Shown: piece after piece, positions 1-6,710 of the stretch
Position numbering within the stretch: the stretch's first letter is position 1
Layout of the letters: every line of letters begins with the position of its first letter
Assembly (NCBI GenBank): GCA_903858015.1
Contig: CAIOGZ010000044.1
Span: 1 to 43,129, forward strand
Direction of reading: 5' to 3'
DNA length: 43,129 bases
Source: an uncultured cyanobacterium
GTDB lineage: Bacteria; Cyanobacteriota; Cyanobacteriia; PCC-6307; Cyanobiaceae
Translations under genes and position numbers: made by a program
Notes under the pieces: generated by a model
Databases searched by the model: none
What the model was told of the DNA's origin: nothing
What the model saw: the letters and a program-made list of their open reading frames with translations, nothing else

Positions 1-3
1 CAA

Positions 4-3000
4 GTCACCACTCGCTGGTGGCACCTATTGATTGGAAACCCAGGTATCGCGGTCGCCCCGCAGCTGCTCATAGCGCTTGGTCACCACTCGCTGGTGGCAC
101 CTATTGATTGGAAACTATCAACATCCTGTAGGATTTTAAGTTTCAATTTAGGGTATGGTCACCACTCGCTGGTGGCACCTATTGATTGGAAACCCCGACA
201 ACACCGGTTAGCTTCAAAGTTAGAAATACAGCTTGAGTCACCACTCGCTGGTGGCACCTATTGATTGGAAACCACCGCTTCAGTAGCAATGCGTAAAGCA
301 TCGGCATCACTGAGGTCACCACTCGCTGGTGGCACCTATTGATTGGAAACCGTTGCCGATTCCCGATCCGTCCCAGCGCTGTCTTTTGGCGGTCACCACT
401 CGCTGGTGGCACCTATTGATTGGAAACCACACAGCTTGCTCGGCTGAGAGGAATTGGCCGGTGGTGGTCACCACTCGCTGGTGGCACCTATTGATTGGAA
501 ACCGCAAATGTTTGCAGACGCCTATAACCATAGGACCTCGCAAGTCACCACTCGCTGGTGGCACCTATTGATTGGAAACAACGCATCTGATCGACTTTCC
601 GCCGACAAGAAGAATCTGGGTCACCACTCGCTGGTGGCACCTATTGATTGGAAACCCGCCTGAACTCGGTTTTCTTGAGACTGTGGTAGTGAGCCGTCAC
701 CACTCGCTGGTGGCACCTATTGATTGGAAACTCCAGGACCAAAGAGAGCACGACAGCGAGGATCAGGTCGTCACCACTCGCTGGTGGCACCTATTGATTG
801 GAAACTTTCACAGTCTCAGGTAGCCAGAGAACTGTTATGGTCCCGCGTCACCACTCGCTGGTGGCACCTATTGATTGGAAACACTGACCGTCAGGCTCCC
901 ACGTAGTTCCAGCTTCCATGAGTCACCACTCGCTGGTGGCACCTATTGATTGGAAACGTCTTCTCCTCCAGATCGCTGGACTTCCTGAAATACTGGTCAC
1001 CACTCGCTGGTGGCACCTATTGATTGGAAACTACCCATGTGGATAACCTTGTTGTCGCCGTCTACGGAGGTCACCACTCGCTGGTGGCACCTATTGATTG
1101 GAAACCCATTGACACGGTGCCCTTGGATGCCACCTGCTGCAGGTCACCACTCGCTGGTGGCACCTATTGATTGGAAACGATCAACGAGGAAGGCGCACGG
1201 ATACCGCTCAAGGATGGGTCACCACTCGCTGGTGGCACCTATTGATTGGAAACATCGTTCTGTGCCGCCGCCGCTAAAACCAGGGCCCCGATGGTCACCA
1301 CTCGCTGGTGACACCTATTGATTGGAAACCTTGAAAGATATCTTCCAGGAAGTCTCCAAATATCCCTGGTCACCACTCGCTGGTGACACCTATTGATTGG
1401 AAACAACATATCCGTCGATCACGTACTGTGCATATTGCTGTATAGTCACCACTCGCTGGTGACACCTATTGATTGGAAACTCTGAACTTGGCTGTTTTGC
1501 TGTGAGCAAACATCTCGAGTCACCACTCGCTGGTGACACCTATTGATTGGAAACTTAATACTTCTTCAACAAAAGGAACGAAGTCATCATAGTCACCACT
1601 CGCTGGTGACACCTATTGATTGGAAACATTGTTGGGCGAATTTGGACCAGTGTTTTTCGCTTTGCAGTGTCACCACTCGCTGGTGACACCTATTGATTGG
1701 AAACGTCAGTTGCATTGTTTTCCGACCCTGACGTTGTTGTGTCACCACTCGCTGGTGACACCTATTGATTGGAAACCTGGGAGCCCCGGAAGATCACCGA
1801 AGCAGCGCCGGTGCCGGGTCACCACTCGCTGGTGACACCTATTGATTGGAAACAACTGTCCTAAACGGAAGGCTTAGGATTAGCTTTGAAAGCCGTCACC
1901 ACTCGCTGGTGACACCTATTGATTGGAAACCCGCTGCCATCAATGGCCCGCTAATCGCGCCGCCAGTTGAAGTCACCACTCGCTGGTGACACCTATTGAT
2001 TGGAAACCAGGTGTAAGGTCATCGCCAAATGGAATGTCCATTTTAACAAGTCACCACTCGCTGGTGACACCTATTGATTGGAAACTTAGGCCCCTTACCG
2101 CCTCCCTGGATGTCTCGATCCGCTGTCACCACTCGCTGGTGACACCTATTGATTGGAAACCAATTTTTGCGTAAAGCTGGACCAGCCTGGCGTCATTGTC
2201 ACCACTCGCTGGTGACACCTATTGATTGGAAACCTTCAACCCTTGGCACGTACGTGGTAGCGCCGCCGTTTTCGCGTCACCACTCGCTGGTGACACCTAT
2301 TGATTGGAAACGAGAAATCTCCCAGCCTGGGTGTTCACAGGATTGGTAAGTCACCACTCGCTGGTGACACCTATTGATTGGAAACTAGTGTTGGAGACGT
2401 AATCATGGCATGGATCATTGAAGGGTCACCACTCGCTGGTGACACCTATTGATTGGAAACGGGCGGGAGGTGGTATGGGTTCTGATTCACGCACGACTTG
2501 TCACCACTCGCTGGTGACACCTATTGATTGGAAACTGTAATAAACACAGTGGTCCTTGTGCTCTTCTCGGCGGTTGTCACCACTCGCTGGTGACACCTAT
2601 TGATTGGAAACGCATCCGAAAACACACCTTCCCGTGCCACGACAGAAAAGTGGTCAACACTCGCTGGTGACACCTATTGATTGGAAACCACGTGAGGGTG
2701 ACGGTGATGGTGTGACCGTCACCGTGTCACCACTCGCTGGTGACACCTATTGATTGGAAACCAGCACAAGGGCCGATTGCACCGGGCCTGGATCAATCGC
2801 CAGGTCACCACTCGCTGGTGACACCTATTGATTGGAAACCTGACGGAGATCCACTCGATTCCGTTCAGCACGCCTTTGTCACCACTCGCTGGTGACACCT
2901 ATTGATTGGAAACCGAATTCACTCCAAGGGTCTTTGACATTGAAAGCGTATCGTCACCACTCGCTGGTGACACCTATTGATTGGAAACTTGACATCGGAT

Positions 3001-3735
3001 GGTTTGAAATCAGTCGTTAGCATTAGAGGACACCACTCGCTGGTGACACCTATTGATTGGAAACTATTCGTCGGGATTGGGCACTTCAACCTGTTTTTCC
3101 ATGTCACCACTCGCTGGTGACACCTATTGATTGGAAACTTCAGGAACTGACGCGACTGCTCCATCTGATCCATCGCCGTCACCACTCGCTGGTGACACCT
3201 ATTGATTGGAAACCATGATAGTGTTTTTCAAGAATGTGCAACCACCTGCAAGCGTCACCACTCGCTGGTGACACCTATTGATTGGAAACCCGTCGTCGGA
3301 GATCAACCCAATAGGCACCGGCGAAAGTCACCACTCGCTGGTGACACCTATTGATTGGAAACTGTCGATGTCGAGCCTACGCTCGGTTAGCACGACATCA
3401 AGTCACCACTCGCTGGTGACACCTATTGATTGGAAACTTAGGCTCAAAGTGTTGTTTAATTGTAGAACCTTCAATCGTCACCACTCGCTGGTGGCACCTA
3501 TTGATTGGAAACCCTGCAACGAACAGGAACTGGGAACCTTGGCCAACGCTAGTGTCACCACTCGCTGGTGACACCTATTGATTGGAAACAACCTTTTCCA
3601 TGAGTGCCAAAGGCTTGCCATTCTGGTCACCACTCGCTGGTGGCACCTATTGATTAAAATCTAGATAGGCAGGTTTCTCTTTTGTGGCCTGATATTTAAG
3701 TCACCACTCGCTGGCGACACCTATTGATTAGAATC
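4..3735 (+). CRISPR. CRISPR array, 50 repeats and 49 spacers, truncated at left edge
   Basis: Fifty copies of a 36-nt repeat start at 4, 80, 158, 237, 315 and so on to 3554, 3626 and 3700. The repeat begins GTCACCACTCGCTGGTG and ends ATTGATTGGAAAC. Spacers are unique and range from 36 to 43 nt, a spread typical of type III and I-D arrays rather than I-E or II. The GAAAC end and the decayed last two repeats (3626 and 3700, with altered 3' ends) indicate plus-strand transcription, leader left of position 1 and trailer at 3735. Repeat positions 1-7 and 13-19 form a stem with loop CTCGC. Repeats 1-17, 47 and 49 have G at position 18; the others have A. Repeats 36 (2653) and 41 (3029) carry single stem changes. 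No cas gene is visible, so the subtype is inference. Confidence 0.98.
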
Positions 3736-3775
3736 ATCTCCTTGTTTTCTTGTGTTTTAGTCAAAGTAGATATGC

Positions 3776-3808
3776 GATCCTGCTGGCAACCTGTCGGCGG
3801 GATCTTTT
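3776..3808 (+). terminator. Possible terminator behind the CRISPR array
   Basis: GATCCTGC (3776-3783) can pair with GCGGGATC (3797-3804) through one T·G wobble across a 13-nt loop, followed by TTTT. It lies 40 nt beyond the last degenerate repeat and could end the pre-crRNA transcript before it runs into the convergent SAVED gene. The T run is short, so the call is weak. The rest of 3736-3963 shows no convincing gene; a 68-codon minus-strand frame there has no recognisable features. Confidence 0.3.
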
Positions 3809-3963
3809 CAAGTCAGAGGTGCCATTTAATGCCTGCCATCCAGGAGGCCCCGATCGAACTTCAAATTTAGAAGGAAGACGAGCAAATCGTCTGCCTGGAT
3901 TTCGCTTAGGCTGAATTGATCGTTCTTTCAGTCTCGGTCGCTGATCGCAAAGGCCTATTCCCC

Positions 3964-5073
3964 TCAAGTCCGCATGGCTGCTGAATAGCGGCGTGTAGAT
4001 GAACCAAACTCGAATTCATACACGGTCGTGGGGCCAAGTGCGGCAGCTTGCTGCCCCAACAGGGCCATCAGATTCACCGGAGCGGCCGGAAAGAGGTGCA
4101 GCCTCGGTGGGCGCTGCTGGCTCACCATTGCACCCAGCTGCTGGATCAGCGCATCCACCAACCAGCGGCCGTGGGCTCCATCCACGATCGTGTGTTGACC
4201 GGGTGGTTGCAGGGAGGCATGCACCAGGATGCCGATTGCACCGGGTTGGGCGGCCAAGTGATGGCGCACATCCAACAACACCTCGCGGCTCACCGACAGC
4301 GCCACCGCCAGCTCCTCCCCCTGCCCAATTTTCTCCTTGCTGAACGACCAGCCGGAGCCTCCCTCCGGGCACCTGGGCAAGGAGTCATCCCACACCATCA
4401 CTCGCATGCGGCTATCGAGCTGGCGCAACGTGAAAGCCACACCGGTTTTGGGCGGCAGCAGCGTTCCCAGGAACCAGGCGATCGAGAGATGGGCCTGGAT
4501 CTTCAACTCCAGCGGCCTGCTCAGGCCGGCGATGGTGGCTGTGGCCTGCCGCAGCCGCTCGGGGATGGTGGTGCTCCAGACCTCGGCATCCCGTGGCTGG
4601 CGATACTCAAACAGATCGCACAAATCAATCCCCAGCTGGCCTTCATTCTCGGCCACTGGATCCAGCGATCGAAACGAACGCAACAGCACCGTGGAACCGA
4701 TAGTCTGAGCCGGCGGCTCCAACAGCTCTGCCTGCTGCAGGAGCTCCCGCAGGCTCTCGGGCGTGTGGCGGGTGCGGCCCGTTTCGATCAGCCGCATGCC
4801 TAGATCGTCGTAGGCGCTCCAATCGGCACGAAACACCCTGGTGCCCGCCAATCGGCAGCGATCCTGCAACCAAGCCTCCGTGTCGGCCAGGGGAAGGGCC
4901 GATGTCTGGAAGCGCAAAGTCTGCAGAAACTCCGCGAATGCTTCTGCCGAGAGGGCATCACACACTTCCTGCCAGCGCTGGCGGATCTGGCCCACAGCCA
5001 GAAATGGCGTAGCTGATAACGCAACCCCTCCAAGCCAGGGTAGCCAGCACCCCCCAGGCGGCCGGTCGCCCAT
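3964..5073 (-). CDS. SAVED-domain protein with N-terminal hydrophobic segment
   Basis: 369 aa. The C-terminal part (about 127-369) reads as a SAVED domain, the cyclic-oligonucleotide sensor of CBASS effectors and some type III CRISPR ancillary proteins. Visible hallmarks are DLCDLFEYR (150-158), AHLSIAWFLG (194-203), a Trp near 228 and HLFPAAPVNLMALLG (326-340). Residues 9-28 (WLPWLGGVALSATPFLAV) are hydrophobic and could be a membrane anchor. Residues 30-125 look helical and match no nuclease, TIR or Lon protease that I recognise. An in-frame stop at 5104-5106 lies 30 nt upstream of the ATG, and no ATG, GTG or TTG lies between, so the start is reasonable and no larger effector is fused in frame. 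It converges on the CRISPR array. A role as a CRISPR-linked signalling effector is inference from domain and position. Confidence 0.8.
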   Translation of the reverse strand: MGDRPPGGCWLPWLGGVALSATPFLAVGQIRQRWQEVCDALSAEAFAEFLQTLRFQTSALPLADTEAWLQDRCRLAGTRVFRADWSAYDDLGMRLIETGRTRHTPESLRELLQQAELLEPPAQTIGSTVLLRSFRSLDPVAENEGQLGIDLCDLFEYRQPRDAEVWSTTIPERLRQATATIAGLSRPLELKIQAHLSIAWFLGTLLPPKTGVAFTLRQLDSRMRVMVWDDSLPRCPEGGSGWSFSKEKIGQGEELAVALSVSREVLLDVRHHLAAQPGAIGILVHASLQPPGQHTIVDGAHGRWLVDALIQQLGAMVSQQRPPRLHLFPAAPVNLMALLGQQAAALGPTTVYEFEFGSSTRRYSAAMRT

Positions 5074-5213
5074 GGGGAGTGCCGCGATCAGCCCTTCGCA
5101 TGGTCACCAACCTGATGGCCCCCATGGCGTCAGCCATCGACCCATCCGTACTGTTTTTAAAACCAAAAACTTCGCCATGGTCCTAGTTTGGGGCTGCAAC
5201 CGCTACCGGAACC

Positions 5214-5501
5214 ATGGGCGAGCAGCCTCTCAATGTGCTCCGGTCCGCCGAGCTCAAGCGGCGCGGCATCGCGGCGGTGGAGGAAGCCTTGCGCGCCGGT
5301 CCGGTGTATCTGCTCAAGCGCAACAGTCCGGCCGCCGTGGTGCTGAGTGCTGACGCTTATCAGGATCTGCAGCGCTCGGCGGCCCAGCCGGTCACGGCCC
5401 GCCCCTCCTGCCTGGAGTGGTTGCTGGATCTGCCACCAGCGGCGGCCGGCAGAAGTCGCGGCGTCATCGATGCAGAGCTCAACGAGCAGCGCGATTGGTG
5501 A
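5214..5501 (+). CDS. Type II antitoxin, Phd/YefM family
   Basis: 95 aa. The N-terminal half has the Phd/YefM pattern: a short strand (LNVL), a helix with KRRGIAAVEEAL, then GPVYLLKRNSPAAVVLSADAY, which forms the DNA-binding fold. The C-terminal tail (WLLDLPP to ELNEQRDW) resembles the toxin-wrapping helix. The stop codon overlaps the GTG start of the PIN toxin remnant (GTGA at 5498-5501), the usual coupling of such operons. Because the toxin is broken, the antitoxin is probably a relic or has been kept as an autorepressor. It is divergent from the SAVED gene, sharing a 140-nt upstream region. Confidence 0.8.
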   Translation: MGEQPLNVLRSAELKRRGIAAVEEALRAGPVYLLKRNSPAAVVLSADAYQDLQRSAAQPVTARPSCLEWLLDLPPAAAGRSRGVIDAELNEQRDW

Positions 5502-5765
5502 TCGCCTTTCTCGATGCCAGCGCCCTGATCTACCTGGTGGATGGTGATGCGTTGTCGGCGGTCAAGCAGCAGCTCTTGGAGCTTGCGGCAACGGCGCAAG
5601 CCTCTGGGTCTGGCATTCGACTGGCGATCAGCCGCCTGAGTTGGCTTGAATGCCGCGTGGGGCCCCTCCGCCGTGATGGTCACGGGCGATGCAGGTTTCC
5701 AGAGGGTGCCCGGTTTGCCGGTGGCGTTGGTGCAGGGTGGCCTTCCTCCACGCAGCCACTCCTGA
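5498..5765 (+). pseudogene. VapC-type PIN toxin, broken by internal deletion
   Basis: The GTG start at 5498 opens a PIN domain: IAFLDASALIYLVDGD with the first catalytic Asp, then ISRLSWLECRVGPL with the conserved acidic residue. After about 60 codons the frame becomes unrelated. In a different frame, from 5673, the typical C-terminal end of a VapC reads VMVTGDAGFQRVPGLPVAL, ending at a TGA at 5763-5765. The central region with the other active-site acids is missing and the two pieces are out of frame, so an internal deletion of very roughly 50-60 codons is the simplest reading. The original frame runs on to 5803 as a 101-codon ORF without PIN features. The gene should not give active RNase. 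Confidence 0.78.
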
Positions 5766-5840
5766 ACGAGCGGCCAGCCAGGCAGCTCTCGATCTTTGCT
5801 TGAACAGGGCTACGCGCAGGATCGGCACAGCAACGGCCGC

Positions 5841-6710
5841 TCACCCCCGCAACACCGCCGCCATTCGCACCACCTGCACGATCGGGCCCACATCATGAAC
5901 CCTCAAGATGGCGGCACCGGCGGCAATCGCCTGGCCGCAGACCGCCGCTGTGCCCCAGAGCCTGGCCCGGGGGCGCGGCTCCTCCAGTACGGCCCCGATG
6001 AAGCGCTTGCGGGAAGGGCCCACCAACACGGGAAAGCCATCGCCAGCCAGCTCGCTCAGGCGCCGCAGCAGTTCGAGGTTCTGCTCGGTGGTCTTGGCGA
6101 AGCCCAGCCCCGGATCCCAGATCAGCCGCTCACGGCGGATGCCCGCCGCCATCGCCCGCCCGCTGCTCTCCAGCAGCTCCTGGCGCACCTCCTGCACCAC
6201 ATCCCCGTAGACCGCCAGCTGATCCATGCTGGTGCTGTCACCCCGGCTGTGCATCAGCACATAGGGGCAATCCGCCGCCGCCACCACCTTCAAGATGGCG
6301 GGGTCGCGGCGCCCGCCGCCCACGTCATTGATCCAGTCGGCACCGGCCTCCAGGGCCGCAGCGGCCACCGGGGCACGGAAGGTGTCCACTGACAGAATGG
6401 CTTCGGGATGGGCGGCGCGAATCGCCGCCAGGGCCGGCAGCACCCGGCGGGCCTCCTCCTCGGGCCCCACATCGCTGGCGCCGGGCCGGGTGCTCTGGCC
6501 GCCGAGATCGAGCCCATCGGCGCCCTGGGCCAGCATCCGCCCGGCGGCCCGCAGCGCATCCTCCACAGCGGCGAGTCGGCCGCCATCGCTGAAGGAATCG
6601 GGGGTGAGGTTAAGGATCCCGATCACCCGCGGGACACCTGGGGCCGTAGGGAACGCGTTCGCGCTGAGCCAGGCGGCCAGGGAGGCGGGGCGGCGCGACG
6701 GCAGGCCCAT
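5841..6710 (-). CDS. folP: Dihydropteroate synthase
   Basis: 289 aa, normal length. It condenses p-aminobenzoate with dihydropterin pyrophosphate in folate synthesis, in the cytoplasm. Visible family motifs are GILNLTPDSFSDGG near the N-terminus, LDLGGQSTRPGA, SVDTF, WINDVGGG, LMHSRG, DPGLGFAKT and GPSRKRFI, forming the TIM-barrel pterin and pyrophosphate sites. It lies 17 nt downstream of tpiA on the same strand and is probably co-transcribed with it. It meets the degraded toxin region tail to tail. Confidence 0.97.
   Translation of the reverse strand: MGLPSRRPASLAAWLSANAFPTAPGVPRVIGILNLTPDSFSDGGRLAAVEDALRAAGRMLAQGADGLDLGGQSTRPGASDVGPEEEARRVLPALAAIRAAHPEAILSVDTFRAPVAAAALEAGADWINDVGGGRRDPAILKVVAAADCPYVLMHSRGDSTSMDQLAVYGDVVQEVRQELLESSGRAMAAGIRRERLIWDPGLGFAKTTEQNLELLRRLSELAGDGFPVLVGPSRKRFIGAVLEEPRPRARLWGTAAVCGQAIAAGAAILRVHDVGPIVQVVRMAAVLRG

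Follow-up and report, generated by a model that had tools for sequence, protein, structure and literature searches.

A one-base switch between repeat blocks in a cyanobacterial type III-B CRISPR array

What can a single base, fixed through one run of CRISPR repeats and exchanged for another in the next, tell us about the history of an array? The question is raised by the window studied here, 43,129 nt of contig C44 from the genome of an uncultured cyanobacterium (G000), which holds an array of 50 regular direct repeats, each of 36 nt, with spacers of similar length (36–43 nt; Table 1). The repeat consensus is GTCACCACTCGCTGGTG[G/A]CACCTATTGATTGGAAAC, in which the bracketed base is position 18, and this position is the sole difference between the repeats of the leader-side block and those of the older block. 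We consider it highly probable that the window carries the trailer-side part of a type III-B array in which an A-to-G change in the leader repeat was copied onward, with separate changes at repeats 47 and 49, a weaker hairpin and crRNA maturation by RNase E.

Two repeat blocks and the leader end

An earlier note on this DNA counted 46 repeats, having missed four at the trailer end. Its border near position 1294 agrees with the repeat listing, and its assignment of G18 to repeats 1–17 and A18 to repeats 18–46 holds for these repeats but leaves out the trailer end of the array, where position 18 reads G, A, G, A across repeats 47–50 and the last two repeats have decayed.

Table 1. Coordinates of the features discussed (window, contig C44; L021 and L022, loci on contigs C91 and C20 of the same genome).
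Feature	Location	Strand	Remarks
CRISPR array in the window	window 4..3735	+	50 repeats
Leader-side block, repeats 1–17	window 4..1253	+	G18 in every repeat
Older block, repeats 18–46	window 1294..3437	+	A18 in every repeat
Repeat 36	window 2653..2688	+	private C5A; core stem pair broken
Repeat 41	window 3029..3064	+	private T2A; breaks the 2–18 pair
Repeat 47	window 3477..3512	+	G18 within the old end, otherwise unchanged; exception to the two-block picture
Repeat 48	window 3554..3589	+	A form
Repeat 49	window 3626..3661	+	G form with altered 3' end (31A, 32A, 35T)
Repeat 50	window 3700..3735	+	final repeat at the trailer; A form carrying 16C, 31A, 35T
Exact contig overlap	window 1..105		identical to the last 105 bases of C91, reverse complement
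SAVED-domain protein, 369 aa	window 3964..5073	-	beyond the trailer; no other Pfam match
SAVED-domain effector beside array B	L021 3575-5155	+	weak N-terminal esterase-like (DUF676) match
Cmr6-like protein, 734 aa	L021 9413-11617	+	N-terminal RRM_1, E 6e-17
NucC-like nuclease	L021 11614-12402	+	PADLOC E 1.4e-82; Pfam DUF6602; directly after cmr6
Orphan single repeat	L022 507-542		consensus save T18

The window cuts the array, starting inside it, and the array continues on contig C91, which is joined to the window by the 105-base overlap. C91 adds six G-form repeats, followed by the leader, cas2 and cas1 (Cas1 and Cas2 by both Pfam and NCBIfam models). The joined array, array A, has 56 repeats and 55 spacers, with position 18 in the order G23 A29 G A G A and the leader at the G end, where the only match of the Cas1 model in the whole genome is also found. 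The polarity that had been assumed is supported by the leader and cas1–cas2 adjoining the G end and by the decayed repeats lying at the opposite end. Position 18 forms 6 runs across the 56 repeats against a shuffled mean of 28.7, and none of 200,000 shuffles had 6 runs or fewer, so the block order is not due to chance.

A second array on C91, array B, has seven intact A-form repeats and then three decaying ones (position 18 being C, T, and A). Arrays A and B lie ~2 kb apart, on either side of cas1–cas2, and share a leader that is identical at 95 of the 100 bases adjoining the repeats. The genome in this way holds a small natural experiment, in which array B, still bearing the older base A behind an almost identical leader, can serve as the control. 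The orphan repeat on C20 has no second clear repeat beside it.

Cas genes, hairpin, and crRNA maturation

The genes beside array B encode Cas10/Cmr2 together with the subunits Cmr3, Cmr4, Cmr5, and Cmr6, the combination of a type III-B system; a NucC-like nuclease and a SAVED protein that weakly matches an esterase are encoded there too. PADLOC calls Cas10b, Cmr4, Cmr5, and Cmr6, and Pfam gives Cmr2_N, Cas_Cmr3, and RAMPs above cut-off, with the NCBIfam matches falling below their curated cut-offs (Cmr2, 64 vs. 79.4 bits; Cmr4, 79.1 vs. 87 bits). The two-array locus has a SAVED-domain protein on either side, one in the window and one on C91; the two are 43% identical over 265 aligned columns of their SAVED part. 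The RRM of the Cmr6-like protein resembles the free-standing cyanobacterial Rbp proteins; among the matches listed from 99 genomes, its Cmr6 relatives begin to align at residue 78 or beyond, and no RRM was found in the four checked by Pfam. Neither an Rfam search of window positions 1–6000 nor a promoter scan of L021 450–1000 gave a hit.

The 5' half of the repeat is predicted to form an RNA hairpin with pairs 2–18 to 7–13, and position 18 faces T2 in the stem, as had been claimed. The stem itself is borne out by covariation in 19 distinct repeats, which support the hairpin with 91.7% of cells paired compared to 33–50% in slid controls. This set holds each distinct consensus repeat once and excludes forms of which only one or two copies are known; L048 entered by its second most common repeat form. 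Changes on both sides are seen at pairs 2–18 (U-A in 18 repeats, G-C in one), 4–16 (C-G in 11, A-U in four, U-A in four), and 6–14 (C-G in 18, U-A in one), and also at 1–19, which is unpaired in 10 of the 19 repeats and is thus placed outside the conserved stem. Four of five covariation measures exceed all 500 shuffles, which do not keep relatedness, and 30 of these shuffles attained the observed number of further pair types. One relative's array (L043) has five repeats with T6-A14 and a sixth with C6-G14, a compensatory double change within one array. In repeat 14 of another (L086, G413:C47), the loop CTCGT is replaced by its reverse complement ACGAG with the 7-bp inverted arms intact, as if the hairpin loop had been flipped in the DNA, an event that would be expected of arms acting at the DNA level too.

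The earlier note held that the switch exchanges an A-U for a G·U pair without breaking the stem, and this stands for the lone repeat, which folds alike in both forms (A18, -11.5 kcal/mol; G18, -10.9 kcal/mol), but less so among the spacers. When 54 intact sites were folded with 40-nt flanks, the mean predicted stem probability fell from 0.82 with A to 0.61 with G, and the stem reached P ≥ 0.9 in 39/54 sites with A compared to 22/54 with G. The other five pair-keeping transitions gave 0.61–0.73 and pair-breaking changes 0.31–0.37. By these models, the change from U-A to U·G keeps pair 2–18 at a reduced predicted strength, and the weakening in context speaks against full neutrality of G18, although the change may still be near neutral. 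That pairing is kept at all was rejected as striking evidence by itself, since half of the core-stem transitions (6/12) leave all six core pairs in place anyway, as do 78/108 substitutions.

How such a stem may be processed is suggested by the missing Cas6. Three models (PF10040, TIGR01877, and PF01881) found no match in the genome, which is 99.93% complete, and the same models were positive in 2, 7, and 5 of 14 control genomes, respectively; Cas6-based maturation is not supported. As the three models found nothing, the Cas6-binding test that had been proposed may have no object. Together with the hairpin and a 13-nt tag, AUUGAUUGGAAAC, as seen by sequence and folding, this lack of Cas6 is what characterizes III-Bv or CRISPR3-like systems. 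The window's repeat ends in 13 nt identical to the tag that CRISPR3 crRNAs of Synechocystis are described as carrying, in mature forms of 42 and 48 nt (PMC3575380). RNase E is reported to recognize the CRISPR3 stem-loop and to cut downstream of it (Behler et al., 2018, as cited in the review PMC10989914), and a gene of the RNase E/G family is present in our genome. Because the tag is identical, maturation here is most likely through RNase E cutting after base 23. Such a cut would discard position 18 from the 5' end of the crRNA, and with spacers of 36–43 nt and crRNAs of 42 or 48 nt as in Synechocystis, it would be absent from the 3' end too; no effect on target recognition should then be expected. 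Covariation in the stem and the lack of a Cas6 match suggest that the RNase E route is used outside Synechocystis as well.

Origin of the border and competing explanations

The direction of the change was sought among relatives, in which A18 is found in 96 of 97 counted repeats and G in one. These come from the arrays of three same-genus genomes (G413, G018, and G016) and two further records, Synechococcaceae bacterium WB4_1_0192 (L031) and Synechococcus sp. ATX 2A4 (L033), and in any array of more than four repeats the final two were not counted. The repeats so excluded include the decayed G18 repeats with which two G413 arrays (L086 and L087) end and the C or T repeats of our own array B. 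The lone G015 repeat (A18) and a T18 match in G016 that is degenerate were left out as well. Since array B and the relatives both carry A, A18 is the older state, as had been proposed, and G18 reads as derived.

Duplication of the leader-end repeat with each new spacer is established elsewhere (PMC6895254, PMC4466440) and was probably also at work in the window's own organism. If spacers enter at the leader and each entry duplicates the first repeat, an A-to-G change at position 18 of that repeat would have been copied at every later insertion, giving the 23 consecutive G repeats that extend from the leader, with the sharp border at 1294 as its result. Judged by sequence, no fewer than 22 subsequent insertions inherited G18, and the array is youngest in its G block. 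The earlier note's single inherited mutation is retained for this block, but the G/A/G/A end requires more than one change at position 18, and one event does not explain G at 47 and 49 with A at 48 and 50. Strict first-repeat copying would need five changes along the chain to give G23 A29 G A G A; three A-to-G changes suffice if repeats 47 and 49 mutated privately, and we would read G18 in both as having arisen there separately, whether earlier or privately. As repeats 49 and 50 share 31A and 35T, which repeat 48 lacks, copying was not the only process, and an exchange or array reset at the old end is likely on this pattern. The time stamp that had been read into the border is right in kind, in that the border separates insertions that preceded one change from those that followed it, but it is an undated lineage marker rather than a clean single-event clock. 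If arrays of close strains were compared, the border could help to put spacer gains in order. Spacer targets were rejected as a clock: among 50,697 phage records, nothing matched the array's window portion at E ≤ 0.01, and the 26-base cores of two of the 55 spacers, both from the G block, had none in IMG/VR. The repeat itself was not found in IMG/VR either.

Block switches are ordinary, given that 10 of 31 related arrays show one, defined as adjacent runs, each two or more repeats long, in any one column. The repeat is present in 46 of 388 genomes of the class, from which 30 loci were taken in; these were cut to a few kb each, and many of the relatives' arrays are consequently partial. The 31 arrays, all of at least five repeats, comprise 29 from relatives across the cyanobacteria, some genomes giving more than one, and our own two. 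They omit arrays of fewer than five repeats, the few-repeat loci L037, L044–L047, L049, L059, L061, L062, and L066, and the same-genome duplicates L024 (for L064), L028 (for L089), and L032 (for L086). L033, for example, has nine C and then five G at position 27, with a leader motif preceding the C end, and others switch at position 26 (L042) or at positions 8, 11, and 26 (L048); several of the ten, including our array B, have short trailer-end runs only. Of the 17 switched columns, a third would be expected to fall within the core stem with its 12 positions, and position 18 of the window is the only one that does. This shortage is suggestive of constraint, although the columns of one array are not independent and position 15 of L041 carries, in repeats 2 and 4, a change that breaks the stem but formed no block. 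No published account of block switches in these terms was found in a search that lay mostly outside the subscription literature.

The G block could also have arisen by recombination, if a G-carrying array was fused with, or converted, the leader end of an A-form array, and two arrays with near-identical leaders only ~2 kb apart would offer the opportunity. The switch of a relative's array (L087) at positions 12, 23, and 24 together looks like exchange, and the two changes that repeats 49 and 50 share without repeat 48 are in keeping with this reading. However, our two blocks differ at position 18 only, the sister array is of the A form, and no G-form array was seen among the relatives' arrays counted, where G appears in a single one of the 97 repeats. 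We regard this origin of the border as unlikely.

It is less probable still that the G block spread by selection, with the weaker hairpin of the leader repeat altering either how RNase E matures new crRNAs or how fast spacers are acquired. The loss of sites with a firmly predicted stem is in keeping with this, and in E. coli a one-base difference in the leader-proximal repeat lowered acquisition by almost half (PMC5583386). The G-headed array also has 23 repeats since the switch, compared to seven intact and three decaying repeats in the whole of the A-headed array B, but array length depends on age and loss as well, and A was not replaced in array B. In a related and slightly more doubtful reading, the leader repeat acts as an inherited dial whose wobble pair loosens the stems of later crRNA precursors and alters acquisition, and the outputs of A- and G-headed arrays diverge. 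Were this so, two arrays fed by one Cas1–Cas2 could drift in output without any change in protein.

Most improbable is that position 18, at the center of GGTG-N-CACC, mutates so often that the border carries little history: all four bases do occur there in our genome (G, A, C at C91:2680, and T at C91:2604 and C20:507), but the C and the C91 T sit in decayed repeats, 52 leader-side repeats with one border would not be expected, and a hotspot is not supported by the 50 single-repeat deviations in 158 repeats (arrays A and B and relatives, ends excluded), two of which fall at position 18 compared to seven at position 12. Copying of a changed leader repeat is the explanation we favor, and none of these findings alters the known picture of adaptation.

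Comparison with known systems

The closest known counterpart is CRISPR3 of Synechocystis sp. PCC 6803 (III-Bv; Scholz et al., 2013, PMC3575380), which, as described there, shares with our locus the 13-nt repeat end, a hairpin followed by a single-stranded tail, and cmr genes. No Cas6 was found here, and the CRISPR3 crRNAs of Synechocystis are reported to be unaffected by knock-outs of Cas6 genes (PMC3575380). Set beside these likenesses are features recorded at our own locus, namely the two arrays flanking cas1–cas2, the G/A blocks, the Cmr6 with an N-terminal RRM, the SAVED-type effector and the NucC-like nuclease.

With leader-end duplication in general, as set out in PMC6895254 and PMC4466440, array A shares identical repeats on the leader side and changed repeats toward the trailer. 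Nothing essential differs from what these sources describe; the variant here lies in the stem and would mark at least 22 insertions. The CRISPR-I and CRISPR-II arrays of E. coli, as presented in PMC5583386, are likewise two arrays in one genome whose head repeats differ at one base. In that case, the one base pair proved to affect acquisition and is treated in the discussion as belonging to the leader-repeat boundary, whereas the base that changed here is in the stem.
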